This document shows positions 45,199 through 62,783 of a stretch of 64,000 bases of DNA, piece by piece. The notes under the pieces are model-generated. The model did not search any database. It had not been told where the DNA came from and worked only from the letters and a program-made list of their open reading frames with translations. Each line of letters starts with the position of its first letter. Position 1 is the stretch's first letter. This stretch comes from Paraburkholderia ginsengiterrae (GTDB lineage Bacteria; Pseudomonadota; Gammaproteobacteria; Burkholderiales; Burkholderiaceae): assembly GCF_001645125.1 (NCBI RefSeq), contig NZ_LXKA01000143.1, positions 62,001 to 126,000 of the forward strand, given 5' to 3'. Made by a program: the position numbers and the translations under genes.

Positions 45199-45504
45199 AT
45201 GACACTCAAATTCGCAGCAAATCTTGACGATCTGAACCCGGACGAGCCTTATGCGGCAATGGGCGACAAGGAGCAGATCGCCCTGTATCTCGTAGATGGA
45301 GAGGTCTATGCGACGCACAACGTGTGCACGCATCAATTTGCGCTGCTCAGCGATGGTTTTCTGGAAGACGGATGCATTGAGTGCCCGCTTCATCAGGGGA
45401 AATTCGATGTGAAGACTGGCGCCGCGCTTTGTGCGCCTGTGACCGCGCCGATCAAGACTTACAGGGTCCACGTCGAAGGCGGCGCAGTGATGGTTGAGCT
45501 CTGA
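45199..45504 (+). CDS. Rieske-type ferredoxin of aromatic-ring oxygenase
   Basis: A 101-residue [2Fe-2S] Rieske ferredoxin with both cluster motifs: CTH (in [10 protein letters not shown]) and CPLH (in [10 protein letters not shown]). It carries electrons from the reductase at 45541 to the terminal oxygenase. ATG 45199 is preferred (AAGG eight bases upstream); the in-frame extension to 45142 contains the operator. It is the first gene of a seven-gene run to 53095. By context it is a component of a 6-hydroxypicolinate 3-monooxygenase-like (PicB) system. Confidence 0.9.
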
Positions 45505-45540
45505 GCGCCGAATCTTTTTGACTACGCCAGGAATCTGAAA

Positions 45541-46767
45541 GTGGAAACGATTTTGATTGTCGGTGCCGGACAAGCCGGCGGCTGCGCAGCCGAGACGCTT
45601 AGGGCGCAGGGCTTCGAGGGCTCGATCCTGCTCGTCGGTGATGAACAGCACAGGCCGTACGAGCGTCCTGCACTGTCGAAGACGGTGCTGACGGCAGCGG
45701 ACGATAACGAATGCTTCGACGCGTGGTTACATTCGAGCGACTTCTACGCGACCAGAAAGATCGACTGGATAGCAGACGGTGTCGAAAAACTGGACGTGAC
45801 GCACCGCACTGCGATGCTCAAGAGTGGGCGAAGCATCAGCTTCGACAAATGCCTGCTGACAACGGGCGGTCGCGCGCGCCACCTGCCGGGCACGCCTGTC
45901 AGTCACCATCTATTTACGCTGCGTACTCTGGCGGACGCGATGCGGGTAAGGCAGCGCATGGTCGGCGCGAGTTCGGTGGTCGTCATCGGCGGCGGCTTTC
46001 TTGGGCTTGAGTTTGCAGCCAGCGCAAGGGTGCGCGGAATCGACGTCACCGTGGTTGAAGCGGGTGAGCAATTACTGGGGCGCGCGCTGCCGCGCGAATT
46101 CTCGGACCGCTTGCGCAACAAGCACGAACAGAACGGGGTGAAGTTCATGCTGGGTGCCAAGCTGATTGCCTCAGTTGAGCATGCGCCTGGGGTAACGCTG
46201 ACCTTTGCTGACCATGCATCACAGCGCTGCGATTTCGTCGTGGTTGCCATTGGGCAGGAGCCGAACGAAGAGCTCGCCAAGGCGTCCGGCCTCGAGACAG
46301 GTAACGGCATACATGTTGACGCACACTGCGAAAGCACGGTCGCCGGCATTTATGCAGCAGGCGATTGCGCAAATTTCCCCTTTGGCTCAGCTGGGCGGCG
46401 TCTGCGTCTCGAGTCATGGCAGAACGCACAGGACCAGGCGATCGTTGCCGCACGCAACATGCTGGGCGAGACGGTCGAATACCGGCCAAGCCCCTGGTTC
46501 TGGACGGACCAGTACGACTGGAACGTGCAGATGCTCGGAATGCTCGACGGCCCGGTGGATCAATGGATCGAGCGGCAGACATCGAACGACAGGACCTTAC
46601 TCATGGGCTTGCGCGACAACGTCATTGTGTATGCACTCGCAGTCAATAACGGCGGCGAACTGCGTGCGATTCGCGGTCTCGTTGAGGAGGCGATTCAGGT
46701 CGACCCCGAGGCCCTCGCGGACCTGAACGTCAAGTTGCGACAACTTGAACGTAAAGCTCACTCATAA
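45541..46767 (+). CDS. FAD-dependent ferredoxin reductase component
   Basis: A 408-residue NAD(P)H:ferredoxin reductase of the BphA4/PuxR type: N-terminal FAD motif ILIVGAGQAGGCAAETL, the PYERPALSK motif, a second dinucleotide-binding motif VVVIGGGFLGLEFAA, and GIYAAGDCANFP. It transfers electrons from NAD(P)H to the neighbouring Rieske ferredoxin. GTG 45541 is supported by AGGA eight bases upstream. It sits between the ferredoxin and oxygenase genes in one operon. Confidence 0.93.
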   Translation: METILIVGAGQAGGCAAETLRAQGFEGSILLVGDEQHRPYERPALSKTVLTAADDNECFDAWLHSSDFYATRKIDWIADGVEKLDVTHRTAMLKSGRSISFDKCLLTTGGRARHLPGTPVSHHLFTLRTLADAMRVRQRMVGASSVVVIGGGFLGLEFAASARVRGIDVTVVEAGEQLLGRALPREFSDRLRNKHEQNGVKFMLGAKLIASVEHAPGVTLTFADHASQRCDFVVVAIGQEPNEELAKASGLETGNGIHVDAHCESTVAGIYAAGDCANFPFGSAGRRLRLESWQNAQDQAIVAARNMLGETVEYRPSPWFWTDQYDWNVQMLGMLDGPVDQWIERQTSNDRTLLMGLRDNVIVYALAVNNGGELRAIRGLVEEAIQVDPEALADLNVKLRQLERKAHS

Positions 46768-46785
46768 CGCATTCAGGAGAGTACT

Positions 46786-48078
46786 TTGTATTCGTCAGAG
46801 ACGGTAATCGGGCTCGGTGCGCCGAGCGTCAAAAATAAGCCCATCGAGCAATTGGTCTGGCCGGAAGAAGGCCTCCACGCTATTCCAGACTGGGTTTACA
46901 CGAGTGACGATGTGTACGCTCGCGAGGTTGAGCGGATTTTTCAGGGCCGTACCTGGAACTTCGTTGCGCTGGAGGCTGAAGTGCCCAACAGCGGGGACTA
47001 CAAGCGCTCGTATGTCGGTCCGACGCCGGTGGTAGTCTCGCGCGCAGAAGATGGTTCCATCCACGTGTTCGAAAACCGCTGCGCCCATCGCGGCGCTGAA
47101 TTTTGTCGCCATACGCGCGGCAACAATACTGAATTCGTGTGCCCGTATCACCAGTGGTCCTATGACCTGAAAGGGAACCTGCAAGGTATTCCGTTCAAAC
47201 GGGGTGTGAACAAACTCGGCGGGATGCCACGCGACTTCCGCAATGAGGACCACGGTCTCAAGAAGCTCGCTGTCACGACGCGCAATGGGGTGGTCTTCGC
47301 CTCATTCACGCACGACATGGAGCCGATTGAAGATTACCTCACGCCCGAAATCCTGAAGGATTTCGACACCGTCTTCAACGGCAAGAAGTTGCGCATCCTC
47401 GGGTTTTACAAGAACGAGTTGCCATGCAACTGGAAGATGTACCACGAGAATCTGAAGGACCCGTACCACGCAACGCTGCTGCACTCGTTCCTGGTGGTGT
47501 TCGGCTTGCTGGTTGCAGGAAACCGCTCGGCGATGGTGGCCGACAGTAAATACGGCATACACGGCACGATGGCGTCGGCGAAAAGCGATTCACTCTATGC
47601 AACGGTGGATGCCGACAAGAAAAAGGAAATGCGCTCGTTCCACGAGGGTATGGTCCTCAAGGACGAGCGGTTCCTTGAGTACGTCAAGGAGTTTGATTCA
47701 GAATGGTCGGTGACGATGCAGACAATCTGGCCGAATCTGATTGTCCAGCGTGAAATGAATACCTTGGGGGTCCGGCATATTGTTCCGAATGGTCCGAACA
47801 GCATGATCATGCTGTGGACGATGTTCGGATACGAAGACGACTCTGACGAGACCACGCGTCACCGGCTGCGCCAGGGCAACCTGATGGGGCCGGCGGGGTT
47901 CCTCGGTCTTGAGGATAACGAAGCCATGAAGTTTGTGCAGGAAGGCGTGCGTCGCTCGGTGACCGATCGAAGTGTTCTCAAACTCGACAGCGAGAAAATT
48001 GGCACGGCGGACAATCTGATTTCGGAAGCTGCAATTCGTGCGATGTACAAACACTACCGTGAAGTGATGGGGTTCTAG
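46786..48078 (+). CDS. Rieske non-haem iron oxygenase, alpha subunit
   Basis: A 430-residue terminal oxygenase subunit. The Rieske motif pair is CAHRG and CPYHQW (about residues 97-123). The catalytic iron region reads NWKMYHENLKDPYHATLLH, giving the bridging Asp and two His ligands; a later Asp completes the facial triad. It starts at TTG 46786 with AGGAGAG six bases upstream and no in-frame ATG alternative. Its stop abuts the beta-subunit ATG. In this locus it most likely hydroxylates the pyridine ring (6-hydroxypicolinate to 3,6-dihydroxypicolinate). Salicylate/anthranilate-type chemistry is the alternative. Confidence 0.92.
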   Translation: MYSSETVIGLGAPSVKNKPIEQLVWPEEGLHAIPDWVYTSDDVYAREVERIFQGRTWNFVALEAEVPNSGDYKRSYVGPTPVVVSRAEDGSIHVFENRCAHRGAEFCRHTRGNNTEFVCPYHQWSYDLKGNLQGIPFKRGVNKLGGMPRDFRNEDHGLKKLAVTTRNGVVFASFTHDMEPIEDYLTPEILKDFDTVFNGKKLRILGFYKNELPCNWKMYHENLKDPYHATLLHSFLVVFGLLVAGNRSAMVADSKYGIHGTMASAKSDSLYATVDADKKKEMRSFHEGMVLKDERFLEYVKEFDSEWSVTMQTIWPNLIVQREMNTLGVRHIVPNGPNSMIMLWTMFGYEDDSDETTRHRLRQGNLMGPAGFLGLEDNEAMKFVQEGVRRSVTDRSVLKLDSEKIGTADNLISEAAIRAMYKHYREVMGF

Positions 48079-48588
48079 ATGCTGCCAGGATTCGAGAAGA
48101 AGCCAATTGCACACGACAAGGCACTCGCCGCGCGCGCAGCCGTGGAAGATTTCCATGCCGAATATTGTGCGGTGCTCGACGGGGGCGACATCGAACGGTG
48201 GCCAGACTTTTTTACGGAAAACTGTCTTTATCGGGTGACCGAGTACGAAAATGCCGCCCACGGGTTTCCGGTCGGACTGGTCTACGCGGAAGGCCGGGAC
48301 ATGCTGCGCGACCGCGCAGTTGCTATCTCCAGGACGCAGATGTTTGCTCCGCGGCAGATGCTGCATTTCGTCACTAACGTTCGTATCCTTGACGTTACAG
48401 ACGAAGAAATCATTGCTCAGAGCAATTACATGTTGATGCAGACCCTGGTTGAAGGCGCGACTTCCCTGCATCAGGCGGGTCGGCTTTTTGACCGCTTTGC
48501 TCGAAATGGCAATGAACTGCTCCTGAAGGAACGCCAGGCAATTTACGACACGGCGATGATTGCGAACGATCTGGCTTATCCCGTTTGA
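48079..48588 (+). CDS. Ring-hydroxylating oxygenase beta subunit
   Basis: A 169-residue NTF2-like small subunit (VEDFHAEYCAVLDGGDIERWPDFFTENCLYRV; later LLLKERQAIYDTAMIAND). It gives structural support to the alpha subunit in an alpha3beta3 oxygenase. Its ATG directly follows the alpha stop codon with zero gap. Confidence 0.92.
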   Translation: MLPGFEKKPIAHDKALAARAAVEDFHAEYCAVLDGGDIERWPDFFTENCLYRVTEYENAAHGFPVGLVYAEGRDMLRDRAVAISRTQMFAPRQMLHFVTNVRILDVTDEEIIAQSNYMLMQTLVEGATSLHQAGRLFDRFARNGNELLLKERQAIYDTAMIANDLAYPV

Positions 48589-48639
48589 AGGGGGTGATCA
48601 GAGAATGTTAACAGCGGGCTACAAACCAGGGGGATGCTT

Positions 48640-51045
48640 ATGAGCCACACTGACCCGACGGAAGCGCCCATCGAAAGTGGCGGCGTCGGCGCCCGCGTGA
48701 GGCGTCGCGAGGATGAGCGACATTTGCATGGCAAGGGCAAATTCGTCGCCGACTATACGTTTCCTGATTTGCAGGAAGTCGCGTTCCTGCGCAGCCCGCT
48801 TGCGCATGCGCGCATCGAGCGCATCGGTAAGCCCGAACGCTTCGCCGACCGGGTCATTGTGCGCGAAGACATGCGGACGGCGACAGACATTGTGGCCGAT
48901 TCCAGCTTGCCGACTTACAAGCCCTCGTCGCACCCACCGCTCGCATCTGGGAAGGTGCGCTTTGTCGGCGAGCCTGTGGCGATGTGTTTCGCGAGTTCCC
49001 GCGCGGAGGCAGAGGACATCGCGGAGGAAGTCGAGTTGGATCTGGACGAACTGCCGGCGCTGGCGAGTGCATTCGCGGCACGTGACCGTACGGACGTGCG
49101 GGTGCATGACCACTGGACAGACAATCTCTTCCTCGATCTGAAGGCTGACGTCAATTTCGACGAGCGCTCCAGGGATGCACCGATCGTCATCAAGCAAAAG
49201 GTCGACCTGGCTCGCCAGTGCATGGTCCCAATGGAAGGCAAAGCGGTACTGGCGTACTGGGATCACACGCAGGCGCAACTGGTCGTTATTACGTCGACCC
49301 AGGTCCCGCACATGATCCGTACGGTGCTTTCGCAATGCCTCGGTATTGATCACGCGCAGGTGCGAGTCATTTCGCCGGACGTGGGCGGTGCGTTTGGCTA
49401 CAAATGCGTGCTTCAGCAGGAAGAGCTTTGTGTCGCGTGGCTTGCCCTCACCTACAAACGTCCGTTTCGCTTTATCGAAGACCGTCGCGAGCATTTGATC
49501 GCGGGGGCGAATACGCGTCAGCACCACTACGAACTTACCGCGTATGCGGACAACAACGGGCGACTCCTCGCGCTGGACTGCAATCTGTTGATTGACGGAG
49601 GCGCGTATTCCGCGTGGCCTTTTACGATTGGGCTCGAAACAGGGCAGGCGTTGGGCAATCTGCCTGGCCCCTATGATTTCAGGGGATATCGTTGTCGTAC
49701 CCAGTGCGCGGCAACCAACAAGCCCGGGTTCCTTCCGTATCGCGGCGTGGCACGCACCGGTGTCTGTTTCGCTATCGAGCTGACCATGGACGCCATCGCG
49801 CGGGCTGTCGGCCGTGAGGCGTGGGAGGTTCGCTATGACAACCTGATTCGCGGGGCCGAAATGCCCTATACGAACGTTGTCAAGAAGCACTACGACAGCG
49901 GCGATTTCCAGGAGAGTCTGAAGCGGGCCGCGGAACAGCTTGATGTCGCCAAGTGGCGCCGCCGCCAGAAACAGGGCGAGCCGGACGGCAGGCTGATCGG
50001 CATTGGGTTCGCGACATTCACCGAGCAATCGGCGCACGGCACAGCGGTATTCGCGTCGTGGGGTTTGCCTGTCGTTCCAGGCTACGACCTGGCAACTGTC
50101 CGGATTACAGCGGATGGTGGTCTGGAGGTTCGTGCGGGCATCCATTCCCATGGGCAAGGGATGGAAACGACATTGGCGCAGATCGCCAATGAAGTGCTGG
50201 GCATTCCCATTCAGAAGATCAAGGTCGTGCACGGCGACACGGCCCTCACGCCGTACTCGACAGGCACCTACGCTTCTCGCAGCATCGTCATGGCTGGTGG
50301 TGCGGTTGCTGCAACGTGCCGTGAACTGGTGCCGCGACTGATCAAAATTGGCGCGCACATCCTGGACGAAGCGGAGGACGCGGTCCGATTCGAGGCCGGC
50401 GAGGTGGTGGGCGCAACGGGGCGGGTTTCCCTCGCGGAGATCGGCCACGCGTGGTATTTACGGCCCGAACGGCTACCTCCTGGCGTCGATCTGACCGGGC
50501 TTGAGGCCACCCAAGGTTTCAAGCCAAAGGTCGATACCGGTGCGTTCAGCTACGCGACGCATGCGGCTGCCGTGGCGGTTGACACAAAGACGGGCCACGT
50601 TGATATCCTGGACTACGTCATTGTCGAAGACTGTGGGCGAATGATTAACCCGATGGTTGTCGAAGGCCAGACGATCGGCGGCACGGCACAGGGCATTGGC
50701 ACCGCGTTCTATGAAGAAACGCTATACGACGATAACGCCCAGCCACTGACGTCCACGCTCGCAGACTACATGTTGCCCGGGCCTACGGAGTTGCCGCCGT
50801 TGACCATCATTCATATGGAAACGCCGTCGCCCTATACGGAATTCGGCGCGAAGGGGGTGGGCGAAGGCGGCGCAATTGCACCCCCTGCCACACTTTTCAA
50901 TGCGGTGAACGATGCGCTTAGCCCGATTGGAGCGCTTGTCAGCGAGACACCCCTCACGCCACGACGGCTGCTTACTGCGATTGAGGCGGCCAAAGCGGCC
51001 ACGCATAGCAAGGCAGAAGCCGAACATGCTCACGAGGTGATTTGA
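48640..51045 (+). CDS. Molybdenum hydroxylase large (molybdopterin) subunit
   Basis: An ~800-residue xanthine-oxidase-family catalytic subunit. It has the N-terminal a/b-hammerhead (RREDERHLHGKGKFVADYTFPD), molybdopterin-binding segments (SPDVGGAFGYKC; HSHGQGMETTLAQIANE) and the catalytic Glu motif GAKGVGEGG near the C-terminus. It inserts a water-derived oxygen next to ring nitrogen in N-heterocycles. ATG 48634 and ATG 48640 are both in frame; the second fits the AGGGGG site better. It overlaps the FAD-subunit start. By context it hydroxylates picolinate at C6. No XdhC-type maturation factor is encoded nearby. Confidence 0.92.
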   Translation: MSHTDPTEAPIESGGVGARVRRREDERHLHGKGKFVADYTFPDLQEVAFLRSPLAHARIERIGKPERFADRVIVREDMRTATDIVADSSLPTYKPSSHPPLASGKVRFVGEPVAMCFASSRAEAEDIAEEVELDLDELPALASAFAARDRTDVRVHDHWTDNLFLDLKADVNFDERSRDAPIVIKQKVDLARQCMVPMEGKAVLAYWDHTQAQLVVITSTQVPHMIRTVLSQCLGIDHAQVRVISPDVGGAFGYKCVLQQEELCVAWLALTYKRPFRFIEDRREHLIAGANTRQHHYELTAYADNNGRLLALDCNLLIDGGAYSAWPFTIGLETGQALGNLPGPYDFRGYRCRTQCAATNKPGFLPYRGVARTGVCFAIELTMDAIARAVGREAWEVRYDNLIRGAEMPYTNVVKKHYDSGDFQESLKRAAEQLDVAKWRRRQKQGEPDGRLIGIGFATFTEQSAHGTAVFASWGLPVVPGYDLATVRITADGGLEVRAGIHSHGQGMETTLAQIANEVLGIPIQKIKVVHGDTALTPYSTGTYASRSIVMAGGAVAATCRELVPRLIKIGAHILDEAEDAVRFEAGEVVGATGRVSLAEIGHAWYLRPERLPPGVDLTGLEATQGFKPKVDTGAFSYATHAAAVAVDTKTGHVDILDYVIVEDCGRMINPMVVEGQTIGGTAQGIGTAFYEETLYDDNAQPLTSTLADYMLPGPTELPPLTIIHMETPSPYTEFGAKGVGEGGAIAPPATLFNAVNDALSPIGALVSETPLTPRRLLTAIEAAKAATHSKAEAEHAHEVI

Positions 51046-51884
51046 TGAAGGCCGCTGCCTTTGAATACGTACGCGCCGCCACGTTGGCCGATGCGTTACG
51101 TGAGTTTGGCGAATCGGCGACGGGCGTGAAGCCGATCGCCGGTAGCCAGTCGATGGGGCCGATGCTGAATCTCCGTCTGGCGAGGCCATCGCGCGTGGTC
51201 GACGTGTCACATGTCGACGAACTACGCAGTGTCACTGTCGTAGGGGATGGGGTTCGTGTGGGCGCAGCCATCACTCACGCGGAAATCGAGGACGGGAAGT
51301 ACGAGCCTTTGCGTAACGGATTTATGCAGTATGTCGCTTCGGGTATTGCATATCGCGCGATTCGTAACAGAGGAACCATCGGCGGCAGTCTGGCTCATGC
51401 CGATCCCGCAGCGGACTGGCCGCTGGCGCTTTCGACCCTTGATGCCCGGCTTGAGCTCGCGAAGGCGGGCGGTACGCGTCAGGTGCGCGCCAGCGAGTTC
51501 ATGCTGGGCGCCTTTACAACGCTGCTTGAGGACGGCGAGATTATCTCAGCGGTTCTGTTGCCGAAAATCGGCGTCACCCTGCGGTGGGGCTATTACAAGC
51601 TTTGCCGTAAGACCGGCGAGTTCCCCCACGCGAGCGCAGCTGCCGCGTTCGACGCGCAAACTGGCTTGGCCCGCGTAGTCCTTGGCGCGCTTGACGGTCC
51701 GCCGACCGCGTTGGACGCGCTCGCGCAGTCAGTCGCGCAACAGGGCCCCAGTGCCGCCACGCCGGAAGCGATTGCGGCAAGTGTAGCGAACGCGATGCCG
51801 AACGCAGACGCCATCGACCGCTCGATGCACGCGGCCACGGTTGAGCGCTGTCTTGCACAAGTCTTCGGTTCATCTGCGCGTTAA
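51045..51884 (+). CDS. Molybdenum hydroxylase medium (FAD) subunit
   Basis: A 279-residue FAD-binding subunit of the CoxM/CutM type: IAGSQSMGPMLNLRLARPS and NRGTIGGSLAHADPAADWP are the two FAD-binding signatures. It passes electrons from the [2Fe-2S] subunit to the final acceptor. ATG 51045 shares its A with the stop of the large subunit (TGATG), showing tight coupling. The order L-M-S is one of the usual orders for these hydroxylases. Confidence 0.92.
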   Translation: MKAAAFEYVRAATLADALREFGESATGVKPIAGSQSMGPMLNLRLARPSRVVDVSHVDELRSVTVVGDGVRVGAAITHAEIEDGKYEPLRNGFMQYVASGIAYRAIRNRGTIGGSLAHADPAADWPLALSTLDARLELAKAGGTRQVRASEFMLGAFTTLLEDGEIISAVLLPKIGVTLRWGYYKLCRKTGEFPHASAAAAFDAQTGLARVVLGALDGPPTALDALAQSVAQQGPSAATPEAIAASVANAMPNADAIDRSMHAATVERCLAQVFGSSAR

Positions 51885-51895
51885 CAGGAATTTCC

Positions 51896-53095
51896 ATGTC
51901 TGTCATTGAACTCACTATCAACGACCGGGCGATACGCGGCGAGGTCGCGCCACGCACGCATCTGGGCGATTTCCTTCGCGACAACCAGAATCTGACCGGT
52001 ACCCACCTGGGTTGCGAGCACGGAGTGTGCGGCGCGTGCACGGTCCTGATCGACGGCGAACCGGTGCGCGCCTGCATTACTTTCGCGGTTGCGTGCGACC
52101 ATCAGAAGGTTCGTACCATCGAAGGGTTCGACGACGATGAACTGATGAAGCGCATCCGTCAGTCCTTCTCGGTGCATCACGGCCTGCAGTGCGGCTACTG
52201 CACGCCAGGCATGCTCATTACGGCGCGCGATATTGTGCGTCGCTTTCCTGACGCTGATGAGGCGCGAATTCGTCTCGAGCTGTCTGGAAATCTGTGCCGT
52301 TGTACCGGCTACATGGGCATCGTCAACGCCATCAAAGCCGTACTGGGCGACCTCAAAGACAATCCGATCGCTGACGCTCCCACCGCGCCAGTTCGACAAG
52401 CGGCGCAGGACACGGGTGCGTTTCAGACCTTTGCCGCAGTGGCAGTCGCCCCGTCGGCTGCACTGGAGCGCGCGTCGCAAGAGGCTGGCACGGCATCATC
52501 GGCGTCTACCGCTCAGCCGACGGGTGAGCGCAAAGGCTGGACGGCGATTGATGACAGTTTCGTTTTGCCATTTCCGCTTGAACGGGTCTGGGGCTTTATG
52601 GGAGACCTTCCTTCAGTCACGGCCTGCCTGCCAGGGGCGGAACTGATCGAGCACGATGCCGAAAAAGTAAAAGGCAAGATCGCCATCAAATTTGGGCCGA
52701 TGTCGGCGAATTTTGCCGGCGCTGCACGCCTTGAGCGTGATGATGCAGCGTATCGAGCCGTGATGCGAGGCGCCGGCCAGGACAACATCAGCCGCTCGAA
52801 AGCGAACGGTGACGTGACCTACGCGTTAAGTGATGAAGCCAACGGGACGCAGACGCGCGTGGTAGTCACGCTCGAATACATGTTGCAAGGACCGCTCGCG
52901 CAGTTTTCACGGTCCGGGCTTGTTAAAGACTTTGTTCGACGGATGATTGCTGACTTTGGCATGCGAATTACCGCACAGTTGGGCGGCGCGGATGTGCCGG
53001 ACTCAGCGGCGCTGCAAACCCGATTCAACGTCGGTAGTCTGGTGTGGAGTGTCCTGTGGGGTCGTATAAAACGGATCTTTGGCCGCAGCGAATAA
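51896..53095 (+). CDS. Molybdenum hydroxylase small [2Fe-2S] subunit fused to CoxG/SRPBCC domain
   Basis: A 399-residue fusion. Residues 1-160 form the usual small subunit: plant-type cluster CEHGVCGAC ... C and second cluster CGYCTPGM ... CRCTGY. After an Ala/Thr-rich linker (about 160-205), residues 210-370 are a CoxG-like SRPBCC domain (FPLERVWGFMGDLPSVTACLPGAELIE; KIAIKFGPMSANFAGAARLE) with a basic hydrophobic tail. Stand-alone CoxG helps anchor CO dehydrogenase to the membrane, so the tail may place the hydroxylase near the respiratory chain. AGGA lies six bases before ATG 51896. Confidence 0.92.
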   Translation: MSVIELTINDRAIRGEVAPRTHLGDFLRDNQNLTGTHLGCEHGVCGACTVLIDGEPVRACITFAVACDHQKVRTIEGFDDDELMKRIRQSFSVHHGLQCGYCTPGMLITARDIVRRFPDADEARIRLELSGNLCRCTGYMGIVNAIKAVLGDLKDNPIADAPTAPVRQAAQDTGAFQTFAAVAVAPSAALERASQEAGTASSASTAQPTGERKGWTAIDDSFVLPFPLERVWGFMGDLPSVTACLPGAELIEHDAEKVKGKIAIKFGPMSANFAGAARLERDDAAYRAVMRGAGQDNISRSKANGDVTYALSDEANGTQTRVVVTLEYMLQGPLAQFSRSGLVKDFVRRMIADFGMRITAQLGGADVPDSAALQTRFNVGSLVWSVLWGRIKRIFGRSE

Positions 53096-53162: not shown

Positions 53163-53176
53163 ATCAGTATGCTGAT
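53163..53176. promoter_or_regulatory. MarR-type operator B (ATCAGTATGCTGAT)
   Basis: The exact reverse complement of operator A, overlapping a TATTAT -10-like hexamer (53159-53164) and ending 18 bp before the decarboxylase start. It marks a separate promoter for the 53195-57561 operon. Confidence 0.75.
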
Positions 53177-53194
53177 GAAAAATTGGAGTTTGTC

Positions 53195-55015: not shown

Positions 55016-55870
55016 ATGAGCCACGCATCCACATTCCTCTACGGCGGCAACGTTCACGCGAACGGAATCCGCCAGCACTACCTGCGCTACGGCGGTGCGA
55101 CCGGCGCGCGCGCCGGTCGCGACCCCGTCATCATCGTACCGGGCATCACCAGCCCGGCTGTGACGTGGGGTTTCGTCGGTGAGCACTTCGGCACGACGTT
55201 CGACACCTATGTGCTCGATGTTCGTGGCCGGGGTTTGTCTTCGGCATCGGACTCACTGGACTACAGCCTGGATGCGCAGGCTGCGGACCTGGTCGCGTTC
55301 GCCCAGGCGCTGGGGCTGACGCGCTACAGCGTGGTGGGCCACTCGATGGGCGGCCGCATTGGCGTACGCGCTGCGCGCACGCAGCCGCACGGTCTTGCGC
55401 GGCTGGTCATGCTCGACCCGCCCGTGTCCGGTCCGGGCCGTCGTCCGTATCCGTCGCAACTGCCTTGGTACGTCGATTCGATGCGCCTCGCGCGCGAAGG
55501 CACGGACGCCGGCGGGATGCGCGCGTTCTGTCCCACCTGGACCGATGAGCAGCGCCAACTGCGCGCCGAGTGGCTGCACACGTGTGACGAACGCGCCGTG
55601 ATCGCGAGCTTTGAGGGCTTCCATACCGATGACGTGCATGGGGACCTGCCGCACGTCGGCGTGCCCGTCCTGCTGATGACGGCCGGACGCGGCGACGTGG
55701 TCCGCCCCGAAGACATCGAGGAGATCCGCACCCTGGTGCCGCATCTCGCGCACTCGCACGTGTCCGACGCCGGCCACATGATTCCGTGGGACGACGAACT
55801 CGGTTTCTATCGCGCGTTCGATGACTTCCTCGGAGCGCCGCTGCCGGTTCTGCCCGCCGACCGGGCCTGA
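55016..55870 (+). CDS. nicD: N-formylmaleamate deformylase
   Basis: A 284-residue alpha/beta hydrolase that resembles NicD throughout: NGIRQHYLRYGG, VPGITSPAVTWGFV, nucleophile Ser in VVGHSMGGR, DPPVSGPGRR, LRAEWLHTC, and catalytic His in AGHMIPWDDE. It removes formate from N-formylmaleamate. ATG 55016 is used; GTG 54974, right after the upstream stop, is the alternative start and would add 14 residues. It lies between the isomerase and dioxygenase genes. Confidence 0.9.
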   Translation: MSHASTFLYGGNVHANGIRQHYLRYGGATGARAGRDPVIIVPGITSPAVTWGFVGEHFGTTFDTYVLDVRGRGLSSASDSLDYSLDAQAADLVAFAQALGLTRYSVVGHSMGGRIGVRAARTQPHGLARLVMLDPPVSGPGRRPYPSQLPWYVDSMRLAREGTDAGGMRAFCPTWTDEQRQLRAEWLHTCDERAVIASFEGFHTDDVHGDLPHVGVPVLLMTAGRGDVVRPEDIEEIRTLVPHLAHSHVSDAGHMIPWDDELGFYRAFDDFLGAPLPVLPADRA

Positions 55871-55893
55871 CACCCTCTTTTAAGGAGAACACG

Positions 55894-56928
55894 ATGCCAG
55901 TCAGCGATTACCAGATGGTTGACGCGTGGAAGCAGGTGTTGACACTCTCGCGTCTTGAAGCGGGTCAGACTGTCACGATTCTGACGAGTGCGTCCACGCA
56001 TCCGCAAACACTCTCGACCGCGTTGATCGCGACGCAGTCAATGGGCGCGATCGTCAACCGGCTGGACCTGCCGCCGGTGAATGGCGAGAAGGCGCTCAGC
56101 CGCGACTCGCTCGCCTACCTTGGCACGACACCGCTCACGGGTAACCCCGCAGCGATTGCTGCGCTCAAGGCGAGCGACCTGGTCCTGGACCTGATGACGT
56201 TGCTGTTCTCGCCGGAGCAGCTCGACATTCTGAAGACCGGCACCAAGATCCTGCTCGCGGTCGAGCCGCCTGAAGTGCTTACTCGGCTCGTACCAAGTCT
56301 GGCCGACCGCGAGCGGGTGCTGGCCGCTCATGCCCACATCAACCGGTCCAAAGAGATGCACATTGTTTCGGCCGCCGGGACGGACTTCCACTGTCCGATC
56401 GGCGAATTCGAGGCGATTGCGGAATACGGTTTCGTCGACACGCCAGGCCGGTGGGATCACTGGCCCAGCGGCTTTGCGCTGACGTTCCCGGACGAAGGCC
56501 GCGCCCACGGACGTATCGTAATCGACCGGGGCGACATCCTGCTGCCGCAAAAGTGCTATGTGCAGGACCGGATCGAGCTCACCGTCGAGAACGGCTTTGC
56601 CACCCGCATTGAGGGCGGCATGGACGCGGACCTGCTCAAGGAGTACATGGGCACCTTCAGGGACCACGAGGCGTACGCCATCTCGCATATTGGTTGGGGA
56701 CTTCAGCCGCGCGCGCACTGGTCAACGCTGGGGCTGTATGACCGCGAGGCGACCATCGGTATGGACGCGCGTGCTTTCGAGGGCAACTTCCTGTTCTCGC
56801 TCGGACCGAACAACGAAGCAGGTGGCAAGCGCACGACCACCTGCCATATCGACATTCCGCTGCGCCACTGCGACGTGTTCCTCGATGGTAATGCCGTGGT
56901 GCGCAACGGCCAGGTGCTGGATAAGTGA
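55894..56928 (+). CDS. nicX: 2,5-dihydroxypyridine 5,6-dioxygenase
   Basis: A 344-residue iron dioxygenase matching NicX along its length: ILLAVEPPEVLTRLVPS, EYGFVDTPGRWDHWPSGF, AISHIGWGLQPRAHW and CHIDIPLRHCD. Candidate Fe ligands (Glu and His) lie in those blocks. It opens 2,5-dihydroxypyridine to N-formylmaleamate. The ribosome-binding site AAGGAG is strong. The enzyme is common to the nicotinate (NicX) and picolinate (PicD) pathways, so it does not by itself distinguish substrate; the flanking upper genes do. Confidence 0.93.
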   Translation: MPVSDYQMVDAWKQVLTLSRLEAGQTVTILTSASTHPQTLSTALIATQSMGAIVNRLDLPPVNGEKALSRDSLAYLGTTPLTGNPAAIAALKASDLVLDLMTLLFSPEQLDILKTGTKILLAVEPPEVLTRLVPSLADRERVLAAHAHINRSKEMHIVSAAGTDFHCPIGEFEAIAEYGFVDTPGRWDHWPSGFALTFPDEGRAHGRIVIDRGDILLPQKCYVQDRIELTVENGFATRIEGGMDADLLKEYMGTFRDHEAYAISHIGWGLQPRAHWSTLGLYDREATIGMDARAFEGNFLFSLGPNNEAGGKRTTTCHIDIPLRHCDVFLDGNAVVRNGQVLDK

Positions 56929-56937
56929 GGAATCGGC

Positions 56938-57561
56938 ATGTCCAATGAACTTGATACCTACCAGCGCCAGAGCTTTGGCTCGACGCTCGAACCGAAGGCG
57001 CCGGTGGGTCTGCTTATCGTCGACTTTGTCAATGGCTTTGCCGACCCCGAGGTGTTTGGCGGGGGCAACATCGCACCGGCCATCGAGCGCACCGTTCTTC
57101 TGCTGGCCCATGCGCGCGAGCGGGGCTGGCCCATCGCCCACACGCGCATCGTGTTCGCGGACGACGATGCGGACCAGAACATCTTTACGTTGAAGGTGCC
57201 GGGTCTGCTTGCACTCAAGGAGCACACACACAACAGCGCCATCGTGCCGCAACTCACGCCGCGTAAGGGTGAACTGGTGGTGCGCAAGACGGTGCCCTCG
57301 GCGTTTTTCGGCACTTCGCTGGCTGCGTGGCTTGCGCAGCGTGGCGTGCAGACGCTGGTAGTCGCTGGTGCGGTGACGAGCGGCTGTGTGCGCTCGAGCG
57401 TGGTGGACGCGATGCAGTACGGCTTCCGTCCGTTCGTGCTTTCCGACTGCGTGGGCGACCGCGCCATCGCCCCGCACGAAGCCAATCTGTTTGATATGGC
57501 ACAGAAATATGCTGCCGTCATGACCCGGGACGAAGCACTGAGCGTTCTCGGAAATATGTAA
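56938..57561 (+). CDS. nicF: Maleamate amidohydrolase (isochorismatase family)
   Basis: A 207-residue cysteine hydrolase with the Asp-Lys-Cys triad of the isochorismatase fold: Asp29 in LLIVDFVNGF, Lys in VVRKTVPSAFFGT, Cys in AGAVTSGCVRSSVVDAM. NicF-type enzymes hydrolyse maleamate to maleate and ammonia. It starts 9 bp after the dioxygenase stop with GAGG upstream, and is the last gene of the operon. An inverted repeat follows at 57579. Confidence 0.92.
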   Translation: MSNELDTYQRQSFGSTLEPKAPVGLLIVDFVNGFADPEVFGGGNIAPAIERTVLLLAHARERGWPIAHTRIVFADDDADQNIFTLKVPGLLALKEHTHNSAIVPQLTPRKGELVVRKTVPSAFFGTSLAAWLAQRGVQTLVVAGAVTSGCVRSSVVDAMQYGFRPFVLSDCVGDRAIAPHEANLFDMAQKYAAVMTRDEALSVLGNM

Positions 57562-57578
57562 GCGGGTATGAAGTAAGA

Positions 57579-57602
57579 GGGCGCGTCAGGTAGGGCGCGC
57601 CC
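57579..57602 (+). repeat. GC-rich inverted repeat after the lower-pathway operon
   Basis: GGGCGCG and CGCGCCC arms (7 bp) separated by 10 bases, 18 bp after the amidohydrolase stop. There is no T-run; it may be a weak terminator or processing site. Confidence 0.4.
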
Positions 57603-57660
57603 GATGTTGATCAGTCGCGCCTCTCGAATCGCCACGCGTGTCAACGAGGGTCCGGCTATG

Positions 57661-57690
57661 TTGAGTCACCTTTCAATAATTACGTATAAC
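57661..57690 (+). promoter_or_regulatory. Predicted promoter of the MHS transporter-porin unit
   Basis: TTGAGT and TATAAC hexamers with an 18-bp spacer in an AT-rich stretch, about 40 bp before the MFS start codon. No copy of the MarR dyad lies here, so this unit may be expressed differently from the catabolic operons. Confidence 0.45.
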
Positions 57691-57731
57691 TAAATATATC
57701 TGTGGAGCGAATCGTGCAGCCAGGAGTGGGA

Positions 57732-59327
57732 ATGGACATCTCAACGTCGGAGTCATCGCGGCGCGCTGTCACGCGCCGCGAATTTACGCTTATCATCGCG
57801 TCCTCATTTGGGGCATTACTCGAATGGTACGACTTCTATATCTATGCCGCCCTGGCGGGAACATTCAGTACGCTCTTCTTTCCCAGCGGAAATGAGACCA
57901 CGGCCTTTCTGGCCAGTCTCGCGACATTCGGTGCGGGGTTCCTCGTGCGGCCGCTCGGCGCGCTGTTTTTTGGCCGGCTCGGTGACAGGATCGGCCGCAA
58001 ATATACCTTCATGGCGACCATTGTCCTGATGGGTGTTGCTACAGTGGGTGTAGGGCTGCTTCCTTCGTTTGCGAAGATTGGCGTGTTCGCGCCGCTGTTG
58101 CTCGTATGCCTGCGACTTCTGCAGGGCTTTGCGCTGGGCGGTGAAACGGGCGGGGCGGCGACCTATCTGGCCGAACATTCCCCAGCCAACCGCCGGGGGC
58201 TGTATACCAGCTCGCTGCAAACGACGGCCACACTGGGTTTGCTGGCATCCATCGCAGTTGTCAGCGCGAGCCGATCCGCCATGGACAGTGCATCGTTTCA
58301 GGATTGGGGCTGGCGGGTGCCGTTCCTGATTTCACTCGTGTTACTGGTGATCTCCGTTTACCTTCGGACGAAGTTGGCAGAGTCGCCCACATTTCAGAGT
58401 ATGAAACACGCGGGAAAACTGTCGAAATCTCCAATCAGCGAAAGCTTCGGCAAGTGGGAAAACCTCAAGTACGTGCTGATCATGCTGTTCAGTACCGCGT
58501 CCGGTGTTGGCGTCGTGTTTGGGACCGGCCACTTCTACTCGATGTATTTCCTGCAAAACACGTTGAAGGTCGCGCCTAACGCGGTGAACCTCTATCTGGC
58601 CATCGCATTGGTGTGCGTTTTTCCGTTCTACCTGATCTTCGGCTGGCTCTCTGATCGCATCGGGCGCAAGTGGATCATGATGGCGGCCTGCCTGTTGCTC
58701 GCCGTAACGACGCAGCCAATCTTTCACGCGCTGACCCACTACGCGAATCCGAAGCTGGAGGCGTTCCAGAAAAGTTCGCCGGTTATCGTTCACGCGGATG
58801 ACTGCCACTTTTCGCTGTTTGCTGCGCCGAAGACTGATTGCGACCGCATCCGCTCGTTCCTGAGTGCATCGGGTGTTTCGTACCTGCAGATGCCATTGCA
58901 GTCTGGGCAGTCGGCGGATACCACCATTGGCGACACCACAGTTCACGGCAGCGACCGGCACGACCTGGAGAATGCGCTGCTGGCCGCCGGCTGGGTGCAA
59001 CATGCAGACCCGGCGCAGATCAATGCGCCGATGGTCATCTTCCTGATGTGGCTGCTGATCGTGTACCTCGCGATGGTCTACGGTCCGATGGCGGCTTTCA
59101 TGGTTGAACTGTTCCCCGCGCGAATTCGCTACACGTCGCTATCACTTCCATTCCATCTCGGATCGGGCTGGTTTGGCGGGATGTTGCCCTTCGTCGTTTC
59201 AGCCATGGCGGTTGCGAACGGAAATGTCTACTTCGGCCTGTGGTATCCGATTGTGATTGCGGTTCTCTCTCTCATAGTCGGCGTGTTTTTCGTCCCCGAA
59301 ACGTTTCGTCGGGACATCTCGCAGTAG
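57732..59327 (+). CDS. MHS-family MFS transporter with large extracytoplasmic loop
   Basis: A 531-residue transporter with the metabolite:H+ symporter signature: FGALLEWYDFYIY in TM1, loop motif GRLGDRIGRKYTF, LQGFALGGETGGAATYLAEHSP, and a second GWLSDRIGRKW. Between about residues 350 and 440 there is an inserted soluble segment with two Cys (ADDCHF; KTDCDR), predicted periplasmic. ATG 57732 has AGGAG upstream. It probably takes up the pyridine carboxylate. It is followed by a porin on the same strand. Confidence 0.9.
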   Translation: MDISTSESSRRAVTRREFTLIIASSFGALLEWYDFYIYAALAGTFSTLFFPSGNETTAFLASLATFGAGFLVRPLGALFFGRLGDRIGRKYTFMATIVLMGVATVGVGLLPSFAKIGVFAPLLLVCLRLLQGFALGGETGGAATYLAEHSPANRRGLYTSSLQTTATLGLLASIAVVSASRSAMDSASFQDWGWRVPFLISLVLLVISVYLRTKLAESPTFQSMKHAGKLSKSPISESFGKWENLKYVLIMLFSTASGVGVVFGTGHFYSMYFLQNTLKVAPNAVNLYLAIALVCVFPFYLIFGWLSDRIGRKWIMMAACLLLAVTTQPIFHALTHYANPKLEAFQKSSPVIVHADDCHFSLFAAPKTDCDRIRSFLSASGVSYLQMPLQSGQSADTTIGDTTVHGSDRHDLENALLAAGWVQHADPAQINAPMVIFLMWLLIVYLAMVYGPMAAFMVELFPARIRYTSLSLPFHLGSGWFGGMLPFVVSAMAVANGNVYFGLWYPIVIAVLSLIVGVFFVPETFRRDISQ

Positions 59328-59412
59328 TCCAGGTTTCCCTATATAGCGAAGATTTCCCTTGTTCATTTTGGCAAGGGAGACCTTCGTACAATCCTGCGTA
59401 TAAGGTTTGGCG

Positions 59413-60504
59413 ATGAAAACACCATGGGCCGTTGCTGCAACGGCATGTACTTTTGCGGCTGCCATTCCGGCGCACGCGCAATCTTCCGTGCAACTCTGGG
59501 GTGCACTCGATGCCGGCATCACAATGGTCACCAATCAGAAGGGCGGCCACAACTACACGATGGACAACGGCATCGCGACGCCGAACCTGTGGGGCTTGCG
59601 CGGCACGGAAGACCTCGGCGGCGGCAACAAGGCCATATTTGAACTGATCGACCAGTTCAACCTCGGTACCGGCGCAATTTTTCCAACGAACGGCGGCGGA
59701 CTCTTTGGTCGCAACGCTTATGTGGGCCTGTCAAACGACCAGTACGGGAAACTGACGTTCGGCGAACAGTACGACTTCATGATTGACTCGTTGCTGCGCT
59801 TTGACAATTCGATCTACATCGCGGGGCTGTACGGTTTTCGCGAGGGACCATTTTCGGGTCTTGGCATTCCGGGAAATTCGTCAGGGAACGCGAATTTCGA
59901 CCGCATGTCGGGTACGGCTATCTCCAACTCGGTGAAATACACGACGCCGACGTACTATGGATTCTCGGCCGGCGCGCTTTACAGCTTCGGAGGTGTGCCC
60001 GGTGCGATCGCGCAGAACGACGGTAAGAGCTTCGGCGCCAACTATGCCAGCGGGCCTTTTTCAGCCGGTGTTGCGTATACCTACCAACGATATGCGCAGC
60101 TTGCGAACGGCATGGCAGGGATACGAAATTACGGGGTTGGTGCAGAGTATAAGTTCGGCCTGGCCGCGCTTAACGTCCTGTACACGAACACAAAAAACAC
60201 GGCCAACAATGCAACCATCAATGTGTGTCAGATCGGTGCGCGCTACCAGATTACGCCGGCACTTTCAGTGGGTGGAGACTACGAACTGATGAAAGGCAAC
60301 GCTGTGCTTGCCAGCGACAAGGCTAACCAGTTCTCAGCGGGCATTCGATATGCACTGTCCAAGCGCACGGTACTCTACACGGAAGCCGTGTATCAGAAGG
60401 TGAGCGGCGACAACAACCCACGGGCATGGATCATGGCGGTTTCGAGCGCGTCGGGCAACGACAGGCAACTGCTTACGCGAGTAGGAATATTGCATAAGTT
60501 TTGA
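59413..60504 (+). CDS. Gram-negative trimeric porin
   Basis: A 363-residue Burkholderia-type porin: signal peptide ending AIPAHAQ, first strand SSVQLWGALDAGI, the GRNAYVGL and GKLTFGEQYD blocks, and a C-terminal Phe (LLTRVGILHKF) for Bam recognition. ATG 59413 has AAGG seven bases upstream. It should admit small anionic substrates through the outer membrane. Location right after the MHS transporter suggests a dedicated outer-membrane entry, as NicP-like porins serve nicotinate loci. Confidence 0.92.
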   Translation: MKTPWAVAATACTFAAAIPAHAQSSVQLWGALDAGITMVTNQKGGHNYTMDNGIATPNLWGLRGTEDLGGGNKAIFELIDQFNLGTGAIFPTNGGGLFGRNAYVGLSNDQYGKLTFGEQYDFMIDSLLRFDNSIYIAGLYGFREGPFSGLGIPGNSSGNANFDRMSGTAISNSVKYTTPTYYGFSAGALYSFGGVPGAIAQNDGKSFGANYASGPFSAGVAYTYQRYAQLANGMAGIRNYGVGAEYKFGLAALNVLYTNTKNTANNATINVCQIGARYQITPALSVGGDYELMKGNAVLASDKANQFSAGIRYALSKRTVLYTEAVYQKVSGDNNPRAWIMAVSSASGNDRQLLTRVGILHKF

Positions 60505-60509
60505 CCGCG

Positions 60510-60539
60510 GAACTATGGCGTCCCAGGACGCCATAGTTC
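60510..60539. terminator. Perfect 14-bp inverted repeat between porin and marR
   Basis: The arms at 60510-60523 and 60526-60539 are perfectly complementary (GAACTATGGCGTCC / GGACGCCATAGTTC) around two bases. The repeat lies between convergent genes and includes part of the MarR stop codon. It likely serves as a bidirectional terminator; U-runs are missing on both sides. Confidence 0.6.
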
Positions 60540-61044
60540 AGTCAAAGTGCTTGAGCGATGTGCGGCCGTACTGGTTGTTGCCTTCGACCAGTTGCATCAT
60601 CATCCGGACGAATTCAATGCGCTCCTTGGGATCCAGAGGAGCCAGGAACCGCACCTGAGCCTCGCGCATGCTCTCGTACATGTCGTTCATGACACGCCGC
60701 CCTTTGCTGCTGATATTGGCAATTTTCTGGCGTCCATCAGCGGGACTAGGTTCACGCTTGACAAGCCCACGCTCTTCGAGGCGCCGGAGAACGTCGGCCA
60801 TCGTGGTGCGGTCGACGCCAACTTCAGCGCAGAGTGACGTCTGGTCGAGCCCTGGACGCTCGCTTAGCGTTGTAAGCAAACCGTATTGAACCGGGGTAAT
60901 CGCGAAGTCCTTGCAGCTTTCAAAGAACAACGCGACGTGGATCTGGTTGAGGCGCCGGATAAGGAAGCCGGGACGCTGCCAGAGGTGACCGGTCTCAATC
61001 GCCGAATCAGAGACGTCCGTTTTTTTCTCCGTAACTGTGCCCAT
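60538..61044 (-). CDS. picR: MarR-family regulator of the pyridine-carboxylate locus
   Basis: A 168-residue winged-helix MarR protein. The recognition region is PVQYGLLTTLSERPGLDQTSLCAEVGVDRTTMADVLRRLEERGLVKREPSPADGRQK, followed by the dimer helix. ATG 61044 has AAGGA six bases upstream; the frame extends further without support. It closely resembles NicR/PicR-type repressors. The 14-bp dyads at 45166, 53163, 61243 and 61390 are its likely operators, two of them in its own upstream region. The inducer is probably a pathway intermediate such as 6-hydroxypicolinate (inference). The symbol is given on context and family likeness. Confidence 0.85.
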   Translation of the reverse strand: MGTVTEKKTDVSDSAIETGHLWQRPGFLIRRLNQIHVALFFESCKDFAITPVQYGLLTTLSERPGLDQTSLCAEVGVDRTTMADVLRRLEERGLVKREPSPADGRQKIANISSKGRRVMNDMYESMREAQVRFLAPLDPKERIEFVRMMMQLVEGNNQYGRTSLKHFD

Positions 61045-61242
61045 ATCTATCCTTTTCAAAGAGTCTTGCCATTCAGGACAAGTGTAACTGCTGTCTGCCG
61101 GTGGTGGTCGCTGGCGCCATGCTTCATGGTTGGCCGCGGAGTGCGCGCAAAGGCTGTACACACTCCGCCAGCGCTCGTTGACGTGGCGACCCTAGGGGAA
61201 CCACTGTTGCATTCCGGTTTTTTTCGGGATAAAAACCTATCT

Positions 61243-61256
61243 GTCAGTACGCTGAC
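61243..61256. promoter_or_regulatory. MarR-type operator D (GTCAGTACGCTGAC)
   Basis: A 14-bp dyad with perfect GTCAG/CTGAC arms, 199 bp upstream of the MarR start, in the 413-bp MarR/MFS divergent region. It probably mediates autoregulation or acts with operator C. Confidence 0.65.
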
Positions 61257-61362
61257 GAGTTTACAGCCAAATTGGCATGTCGTCGCTGGCGGCAGACATG
61301 CTCGTGATTTTAAGAGTCAACGTAAGAGAAGGGTCACGCAAGTATTTCGACCCGAAGATTCG

Positions 61363-61391
61363 TTGAAGTGCTAGTCCTATATCCATATAGT
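61363..61391 (+). promoter_or_regulatory. Predicted promoter of the second MFS transporter
   Basis: TTGAAG (61363-61368) and TATAGT (61386-61391) with a 17-bp spacer. The -10 element overlaps the first bases of operator C. Confidence 0.55.
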
Positions 61392-61403
61392 CAGCATACT
61401 GAT
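61390..61403. promoter_or_regulatory. MarR-type operator C (GTCAGCATACTGAT)
   Basis: It differs from operator A at one position only, and overlaps the -10 of the MFS promoter, 54 bp before the start codon. Repression by occlusion is expected. Confidence 0.72.
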
Positions 61404-61457
61404 TAAATGGGTTGGCAGGTCAGTCAAACATCAACTTTCACATGCTTGGAGCCGAAA

Positions 61458-62783
61458 ATGAGTACTACCCCAGCCCGATCGAACGAGGCTGCCTCAGGAG
61501 GGCAGTCGATGTCCTGGAGCGACATCAAAACGCTAGGCCTAGCCTCTCTGGGCGGTGCTCTCGAATACTACGATTTCATCGTCGCGGTATTCTTCACCAA
61601 GCTGCTCGCCACAGTGTTCTTCCCGCCGCACACACCCGAGTGGCTCGCGCAGCTCGAGGTGTTTTGCATCTTCGCCGCCGGCTACCTCGTTCGCCCGATT
61701 GGCGGTATCTTCTTTGCGCACTTCGGAGATCGGATCGGGCGCAAGAAAATGTTTGCGCTCAGCCTGTTTCTGATGGCGTTTCCCACGCTACTGATTGGCC
61801 TGCTGCCCAGCTATGCGATGTTGGGTATGGCCGCGCCACTGCTGTTTCTGCTGTGCCGCATCCTTCAGGGTCTGTCCGTCGGCGGTGAAGTTCCGGGTGC
61901 CTGGATCTTCTGCTCGGAGCACGTGCGCCGTGACCGCGTGGGTCTCGCGTGCGGCCTGCTGATGTCGGGTCTTTGCACCGGCATCCTGCTCGGTGCATTG
62001 AGCGCCAAATACCTGATGGGCAATCTCGATGCGGATAGCCTGAAGAGTTGGGGGTGGCGGGTGCCGTTTATCGCCGGTGGCATCTTTGGACTGGTCTCCG
62101 TCTACCTGCGTCGCTACCTGCACGAAACGCCCGTCTTCGAAGCGTTGCGCGCCAAGCGTGCCGCCGACTCGCGTCTGCCGCTCTCGGTCGTGCTCAAACA
62201 TCACCGCGGAGCAATCGTCGTATCGCTGCTGGCCACGTGGGTTTTCTCCGGGATTTTCGTGTTGTACTTCCTGTACACGCCGACCTTCCTGCAGTCACAG
62301 TTTCACGTTGAGGCGAAAACGGTCTTCACCAACAACTCCTGGTCGATCCTGGGGCTGATCATCGGCAGCACGGTCGCAGGCTGGACCGCCGACAGGATTG
62401 GCGGAGGTAAGGCATACGCGCTGGGCAGCATCGCCATGCTGGTTGTGACAGGTGCCTTCTACTTCGCACTGACTTCCGGCAGCAGCACGGTGTGGCTGCT
62501 CTATATTGCGGGAGGCTTCCTCATCGGTACAATCACGCTCGGACCGTACATCATAGTGAAAAGCTTCCCGCCTGAAGTCCGCTTCACGGGCTTTGCGCTG
62601 TCGTACAACACCGCCTACGCGATCTTCGGTGGGACCGCGCCGGCAGTGGCCTCCTACATGGTAGGCCGCCAGGGTATCCTCATGGCGCCCGCCTGGTATA
62701 TCGCCGCACTCTGCATTCTCGGCGTCATCATCGGCCTCACTTGGCGCGCGCCAGTTCACGCGGACGTTGCATCCTTACACTGA
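61458..62783 (+). CDS. MFS transporter, sugar/metabolite porter type
   Basis: A 441-residue twelve-helix MFS protein with MHS-like motifs: GGALEYYDFIVAVFF, HFGDRIGRKKMF, LQGLSVGGEVPGAWIF and a second loop GWTADRIGGGK. ATG 61458 has GGAG six bases upstream. It is divergent from the MarR gene, with an operator over its promoter, so it is part of the catabolic regulon. It likely imports the growth substrate or exports an intermediate. It is distinct from the MHS transporter at 57732, as it lacks the inserted loop. Confidence 0.92.
   Translation: MSTTPARSNEAASGGQSMSWSDIKTLGLASLGGALEYYDFIVAVFFTKLLATVFFPPHTPEWLAQLEVFCIFAAGYLVRPIGGIFFAHFGDRIGRKKMFALSLFLMAFPTLLIGLLPSYAMLGMAAPLLFLLCRILQGLSVGGEVPGAWIFCSEHVRRDRVGLACGLLMSGLCTGILLGALSAKYLMGNLDADSLKSWGWRVPFIAGGIFGLVSVYLRRYLHETPVFEALRAKRAADSRLPLSVVLKHHRGAIVVSLLATWVFSGIFVLYFLYTPTFLQSQFHVEAKTVFTNNSWSILGLIIGSTVAGWTADRIGGGKAYALGSIAMLVVTGAFYFALTSGSSTVWLLYIAGGFLIGTITLGPYIIVKSFPPEVRFTGFALSYNTAYAIFGGTAPAVASYMVGRQGILMAPAWYIAALCILGVIIGLTWRAPVHADVASLH

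Follow-up and report, generated by a model that had tools for sequence, protein, structure and literature searches.

A 64,000-nucleotide stretch of the Paraburkholderia ginsengiterrae genome (8.5 Mb in 393 contigs), hereafter called the window, carries at positions 45,199–62,783 sixteen genes that very probably form a complete pic gene group, a cluster for the degradation of picolinate under the control of PicR. The group consists of picB1B2B3B4, picA1A2A3, picC, picG, picE, picD, picF, a transporter of the metabolite/H+ symporter (MHS) type, a porin, the divergent regulator gene picR and a second MHS transporter (Table 1). All sixteen are open frames without internal stops. A sequence-only reading of the same DNA had proposed a picolinate-type degradation locus. 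This proposal is now supported by orthology to a Bordetella-type locus, by a tree of the oxygenase alpha subunit and by operator-like sites, with picolinate as the substrate suggested by homology. A wide distribution of pic clusters among Proteobacteria has been predicted (PMC10142695), and the cluster described here is of this already known kind. Our additions are small: an operator set, the edges of a cassette and an exchange of transporters.

In the published route, picolinate is converted to 6-hydroxypicolinate by PicA, to 3,6-dihydroxypicolinate by PicB and to 2,5-dihydroxypyridine by PicC, which PicD, E, F and G carry on to fumarate (PMC10142695). The pic cluster of Bordetella bronchiseptica RB50 corresponds to bb0268–bb0283, and its decarboxylase PicC (BB0271) has been assayed as an enzyme in which H163 and H216 are essential (PMC10142695). 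By homology, we infer the same reactions for P. ginsengiterrae, together with the direction of transport, the inducer and repression. Picolinate would cross the outer membrane through the porin and the inner membrane by way of the MHS symporters. The molybdenum hydroxylase PicA would then introduce a hydroxyl group at C6, the four-component Rieske monooxygenase PicB would introduce another at C3, and PicC would remove the carboxylate to leave 2,5-dihydroxypyridine. Ring opening by PicD would afford N-formylmaleamate, from which PicE would release formate and PicF ammonia, before PicG isomerizes the resulting maleate to fumarate. PicR, a MarR-type protein, would bind TCAG-N4-CTGA operators and thereby repress the promoters of picB, picC, picR and the second transporter, and would presumably be freed by a pathway intermediate.

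As a representative of the Bordetella type we used locus L159, the 18 kb around a match to the published picC forward primer that was found in 1 of 268 genomes searched. L159 matches both published end primers exactly, with the published spacing of 960 bp, and also contains the internal mutagenesis stretch with the wild-type codon. PicC from the window is 74% identical to this ortholog, whereas the best match in the other genomes compared reaches 47%. Both loci encode PicA3 as a fusion with a CoxG domain, and the similarity extends over residues 1–396 of 399. The reductase PicB2 is the subunit least conserved between the window and L159. This low value mirrors a published exception, since PicB2 from Bordetella and Alcaligenes share 47% similarity (PMC10142695). 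The deformylase homolog of L159 (13214–14072) was matched as two pieces, and because these appear to be out of frame, picE may be broken in that genome.

The same comparison bears on the question of whether the cluster handles a substituted picolinate, such as fusaric acid or another 5-alkyl picolinate, or a hydroxypicolinate, instead of or besides picolinate itself. Because PicA1 (68%) and the smaller subunits PicA2 (55%), PicB1 (53%) and PicB2 (44%) are less conserved than PicD (78%) and PicG (84%), specificity could have shifted. A fusaric-acid-degrading Burkholderia has been reported, for which the authors point to nic genes (PMC10293998). We consider this alternative improbable. The ring-binding oxygenase alpha subunit is 76% identical to that of L159, the standard-looking enzymes of the lower route would need to accept a substituted 2,5-dihydroxypyridine, and Bordetella PicC is described as inactive on gentisate and 2,3-dihydroxybenzoate (PMC10142695).

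The individual components of the picolinate cluster were identified by family and structure searches. Family searches recovered the ferredoxin, FAD reductase, Rieske alpha and beta components of the four-component oxygenase as well as the MoCo large, FAD and 2Fe-2S subunits of the molybdenum hydroxylase, all as named in the sequence-only reading, to which the fused CoxG domain on the third hydroxylase subunit is a refinement. The description of the decarboxylase as ACMSD-type can be refined as well. It belongs to the Amidohydro_2 family, and its nearest solved structure is gamma-resorcylate decarboxylase (263 bits), with ACMSD further away at only 82 bits; no NCBIfam model matched this protein. 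Structure matches agree with the four enzymes proposed for 2,5-dihydroxypyridine breakdown (NicX, NicD, NicF and maleate isomerase types). PicD, to which no Pfam or NCBIfam model matched, is most similar to 2,5-dihydroxypyridine 5,6-dioxygenase (E 1e-123), and picD is the single match to a gene of this kind in the whole genome. PicG is most similar to maleate cis-trans isomerase (E 4e-110), PicF to 3ot4, a "Putative isochorismatase" (E 6e-99), and PicE to 4l0c, a "Deformylase" (E 4e-91). We take 4l0c to be NicD and 3ot4 to be NicF. The two predicted major facilitator superfamily (MFS) transporters, the porin and the MarR regulator likewise returned matches to their families; both transporters turned out to be of the MHS type, and the regulator gene lies on the minus strand.

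Lower-route genes of the same families also occur in nic clusters (composition according to PMC10269826), so one may ask whether the locus instead converts nicotinate to 2,5-dihydroxypyridine. This is extremely unlikely. As recognized from the sequence before, there is no flavoprotein 6-hydroxynicotinate monooxygenase (NicC) among the 16 genes, the rest of the genome not having been searched for it, and a decarboxylase together with a four-component Rieske oxygenase is found in its stead.

To place the picolinate cluster among its relatives, we searched genome contigs with a profile from a three-sequence PicC alignment. This search matched 289 stretches, 233 of which encode relatives; the best 80 were kept and, with four plasmid records, make up a set of 84 loci. 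Genes were called at 35% identity or more and half coverage. Because the scanned flanks extend at most 10 kb on each side, genes absent from a locus can be edge effects. Within these limits B3 was found in 73 loci, A1 in 65, D in 73, E in 73, F in 75, G in 52 and a MarR gene in 70, and B3, A1, C, D, E and F are present together in 56, in recurring orders, a co-occurrence beyond chance. Matches to the first transporter occur in 27 of the 84 loci and to the second in 21, but since both belong to one type, a match to one may be counted for the other. The porin matched in eight, one of which (L069) lies outside the arrangement of the window. The gene order of the window recurs in Caballeronia, Pandoraea and some Burkholderia and Paraburkholderia loci, and three plasmid records with this order have no genes annotated in the respective stretches. 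In Achromobacter and in several Pusillimonas loci the genes run R-C-(G)-E-D-F-B4B3B2B1-A, and the form R-C-E-D-F-B4B3B2B1-A, which several of them have, equals the order picRCEDFB4B3B2B1A1A2A3 of Alcaligenes faecalis JQ135. Four pic-like loci from three Pigmentiphaga genomes and one Burkholderiales metagenome-assembled genome (L106, L107, L111 and L117) are arranged differently, with a nearby molybdenum hydroxylase only 33–34% identical to PicA1; they possibly use a non-orthologous first step or another substrate. A 51% PicC relative on a Paraburkholderia sp. D15 plasmid (L156 12001–12954) was rejected as a candidate, as it lies outside any pic cluster and adjoins other amidohydrolases.

The sequence-only reading had named a grouping of the oxygenase or decarboxylase with non-pyridine enzymes, such as salicylate or resorcylate types, as an outcome that would speak against it. 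For the oxygenase, a tree of the alpha subunit was calculated, and its outcome favours the pic reading. An alpha subunit with 85% coverage of the query was obtained from 81 of 95 loci, which together with the window makes 82 rows. Eight non-pic rows, three of them with a NagG or AndAc annotation and five with a generic one, were hand-picked from 49 plasmid rows with less than 60% identity (within the best 60 of 75 matching records); the remaining 74 rows were labelled pic by default. All 74 pic-linked alphas, including that of the window, fall on one side of a branch with a support of 100/99 that recurs in every one of 200 bootstrap trees. The tree was flagged for a long outgroup branch (L154), which was retained. 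The oxygenase genes could alternatively be read as a locus for salicylate 5-hydroxylase or anthranilate dioxygenase that happens to adjoin pyridine genes unrelated to it. This reading, suggested by the top solved structure for alpha (salicylate 5-hydroxylase large component, E 2e-128) and by its best NCBIfam model (AndAc, below cut-off with 434 vs 750 bits), is already contradicted and has next to no probability left, given that alpha falls outside the NagG group and is 40–47% identical to the eight NagG-like or AndAc-like proteins, which group separately, that no gentisate or catechol genes occur among the 16, and that PicR-type operators are shared across the locus. Since the loci in this tree had been selected through PicC, a control for circularity was needed, for which the plasmid collection was used. 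The 11 records with a top alpha match (at least 65%; next 47%, among the best 60 of 75 records) are the same 11 that contain a top PicC match (at least 59%; next 51%).

Conserved residues are in line with the assignment to the pic route. Glu15, His17, His168, His221 and Asp288 of PicC (numbered along the 325-residue frame that begins at 53183) are conserved in all 85 loci compared, and His168 and His221 correspond to the two essential histidines of RB50. The iron ligands Asp225, His228 and His233 of alpha are kept in 74 of 74, and the Rieske ligands in 72 or 73 of 74 (one Arg for His101, one Gly for Cys119). Also conserved are His265, His318 and Asp320 of PicD (74 of 75), Cys150 of PicF (75 of 76), Cys80 and Cys198 of PicG (53 of 53), and Glu742 of PicA1 (all 53 alignments that reach this position, of 66). 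We assume that the named residues of PicD, PicF, PicG and PicA1 are catalytic, and assign the roles of the alpha ligands on the same basis. Arg330 of alpha, which the structure-match alignment places at Arg323 of NagG, is kept in all 74 loci with a match; a carboxylate-binding arginine has been described for the oxygenase subfamily that includes hydroxypicolinate 3-monooxygenase (PMC9060491).

Alignment of the intergenic regions revealed a palindrome, TCAG-N4-CTGA, that is absent from the sequence-only reading. It occurs five times in the 64 kb (0.64 expected; 0 of 100 shuffles reach five), four times in the cluster (Table 1) and once outside at position 6111. When all 256 four-base half-sites were tested on 840 bp of non-coding DNA from the cluster, TCAG occurred four times and every other half-site at most once; the stretches used were chosen after the motif was known. 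PicR from A. faecalis JQ135 reportedly binds TCAG-N4-CTNN and is released by 6-hydroxypicolinate. The window sites fit this pattern. The palindrome lies 29–35 bp 5' of picB1 in all 20 same-order relatives in which picB1 was found (the 21st, L120, is a stretch without picB1). Across the loci, TCAG is the top half-site within 300 bp before picB1 in 46 of 67 cases (runner-up 5) and before picC in 47 of 84 (runner-up 13), although these counts include close relatives and are hence non-independent. The centre reads YRYR in 127 of 136 sites before picB1 or picC of related loci. Operator-like sites also precede the MarR gene in 22 of 71 loci and the second transporter in 22 of 28, and L159 contains five, two between a DctP-type frame and picB1 and three before picC. 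The pattern TCAGYRYRCTGA fits 27 places in the 8.5 Mb genome (control pattern: 6), four of them in the cluster; three of the 23 others were examined, of which two lie within reading frames and one is intergenic without a convincing gene start after it. A cluster-linked MarR gene with putative TCAG-N4-CTGA operators is what one would look for in a pic cluster, and we regard these candidate sites as independent support for it.

Several observations weigh against a PicR-controlled picolinate cluster. Of 84 loci, 37 have no copy of the motif ahead of picC, and of 67 loci, 21 have none ahead of picB1, with Bradyrhizobium, Advenella, Ramlibacter, Variovorax and Pigmentiphaga among the motif-less loci; because of these gaps, regulation probably differs in other groups. 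No A. faecalis locus is among the best 80 of the 233 PicC relatives. The uptake genes are unlike those of the Bordetella type: the frame between picA and picB in L159 (6441–7745) encodes a solute-binding protein of the DctP family, and uptake there is thus unlike that by the MHS transporters of the window, neither of which has a match in this 18 kb locus. Our literature search turned up neither growth nor enzyme data on pic clusters with the gene order of the window. Burkholderia strains are stated to use picolinate, with no genes named (PMC10142695), and one B. gladioli strain, whose pic status was not checked, showed no growth on picolinate (PMC10269826).

DNA similarity to eight same-order relatives, most of which have short flanks, starts between 44,745 and 45,163 and stops between 62,762 and 62,806. 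Since homology ends near both cluster edges, this suggests a unit of ~17.7 kb that resides in several genomic places. Only two further matches of at least 150 bases were found, one in L078 (window 43,917–44,173, non-adjacent in the relative) and one in L080, due to a second partial picG copy. This copy, a more distant maleate isomerase (63%), is located past the second transporter in Paraburkholderia oxyphila (L080 19741–20366). In Caballeronia sp. SBC1 the cluster lies on a plasmid record of 2.0 Mb. With the source genome counted, picC was detected in 48 of 399 genomes of the family (E 1e-100 or better; 47 with at least 75% identity), in 6 of 145 genus genomes (5 with at least 82%) and in 2 of 399 genomes drawn from the order. 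From these counts picC is patchy in its own genus, and horizontal movement of the cluster is the natural reading. The G+C content (59.2% vs 62.2% left of the cluster) is too weak as proof of transfer. An empty insertion site was not established: the right-hand neighbour gene has one other match in 143 genus genomes (E 1e-60 or better), near a contig start, and the left-hand neighbour gene has 16 (E 1e-120 or better), the surroundings of which were not examined. We tentatively suggest, as a possible but doubtful extension, that the cluster is a cassette of ~17.7 kb, complete in itself and equipped with four PicR operators, that has moved among chromosomes, megaplasmids and genera. Two MHS symporters and a porin would replace the DctP system of the Bordetella type, a one-step transfer would confer uptake, degradation and control, and PicA and PicB might accept further picolinates from plants or fungi.

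Table 1. Genes and putative operators of the pic cluster (window positions; percentages are protein identities to L159).
Feature	Position	Strand	Evidence
picB1, Rieske ferredoxin of 6-hydroxypicolinate 3-monooxygenase	45199..45504	+	Rieske domain; 53%
picB2, ferredoxin reductase	45541..46767	+	FAD reductase family match; 44%
picB3, Rieske oxygenase alpha subunit	46786..48078	+	Rieske and Fe ligands, Arg330, pic group in tree; 76%
picB4, oxygenase beta subunit	48079..48588	+	family match; 63%
picA1, molybdenum hydroxylase large subunit	48640..51045	+	MoCoBD_1, MoCoBD_2; 68%
picA2, FAD subunit of Mo hydroxylase	51042..51884	+	family match; 55%
picA3, 2Fe-2S subunit fused to CoxG domain	51896..53095	+	domain match; 57%
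picC, 3,6-dihydroxypicolinate decarboxylase	53195..54160	+	Amidohydro_2; 74%; both essential His kept; inferred start, most likely GTG 53195 with GGAG upstream
picG, maleate cis-trans isomerase	54220..54972	+	structure match; 84%
picE, N-formylmaleamate deformylase	55016..55870	+	structure match; 70% (larger of two matched pieces); start inferred
picD, 2,5-dihydroxypyridine 5,6-dioxygenase	55894..56928	+	structure match; His265, His318, Asp320; 78%
picF, maleamate amidohydrolase	56938..57561	+	isochorismatase-type; structure match; 76%
first MFS transporter, MHS type	57702..59327	+	best match TIGR00883, below its cut-off
outer-membrane porin	59407..60504	+	Porin_4
picR, MarR-family regulator	60538..61161	-	MarR family match; between two transporter blocks; true start probably nearer 61044
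second MFS transporter, MHS type	61407..62783	+	best match TIGR00883, below its cut-off
putative PicR operator before picB1, TCAGCATACTGA	45167..45178	.	TCAG-N4-CTGA
putative PicR operator before picC, TCAGTATGCTGA	53164..53175	.	TCAG-N4-CTGA
putative PicR operator, picR side of divergent gap, TCAGTACGCTGA	61244..61255	.	TCAG-N4-CTGA
putative PicR operator before second transporter, TCAGCATACTGA	61391..61402	.	TCAG-N4-CTGA

Elsewhere in the window, a two-partner secretion pair (35604–40803), consisting of a 1235-residue TPS-domain protein and a ShlB/FhaC-type transporter, adjoins a FecR-domain protein. A 508-residue protein encoded at 28101–29627 contains two stretches of Asp/Glu racemase type and looks like a tandem fusion, and an elongation factor G-like protein adjoins a KUP-type potassium transporter at 12828–16996.

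The pic assignment opens no new kind of biochemistry, but it predicts picolinate catabolism for the Paraburkholderia source and for the Caballeronia and Pandoraea strains with the same locus, and both the operator set and the assignment of the transporters are directly testable. Picolinic acid, a chelator that animals and microorganisms produce, is toxic to bacteria (PMC10142695); its breakdown could therefore matter in soil and in host-associated niches.

Set against the pic cluster of A. faecalis JQ135, the cluster has the same list of components in a different order, with picG inside. In JQ135 picG is located apart from the pic cluster (PMC10142695). The loci of Caballeronia, Pandoraea, Paraburkholderia fungorum and Burkholderia arboris share the gene order of the window, with 56–98% identity per protein. 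They differ in genomic surroundings where these were compared, and no porin match was found in 12 Caballeronia loci (two cut short) or in two Pandoraea loci. In contrast to L159, in which picB points away from picA, picB and picA are co-directional here and lie upstream of picC. With the RB50 type, as represented by L159, the cluster shares homologs of PicA through PicG, the order picC-G-E-D-F, the PicA3-CoxG fusion and TCAG-N4-CTGA sites 5' of both picC and picB1.

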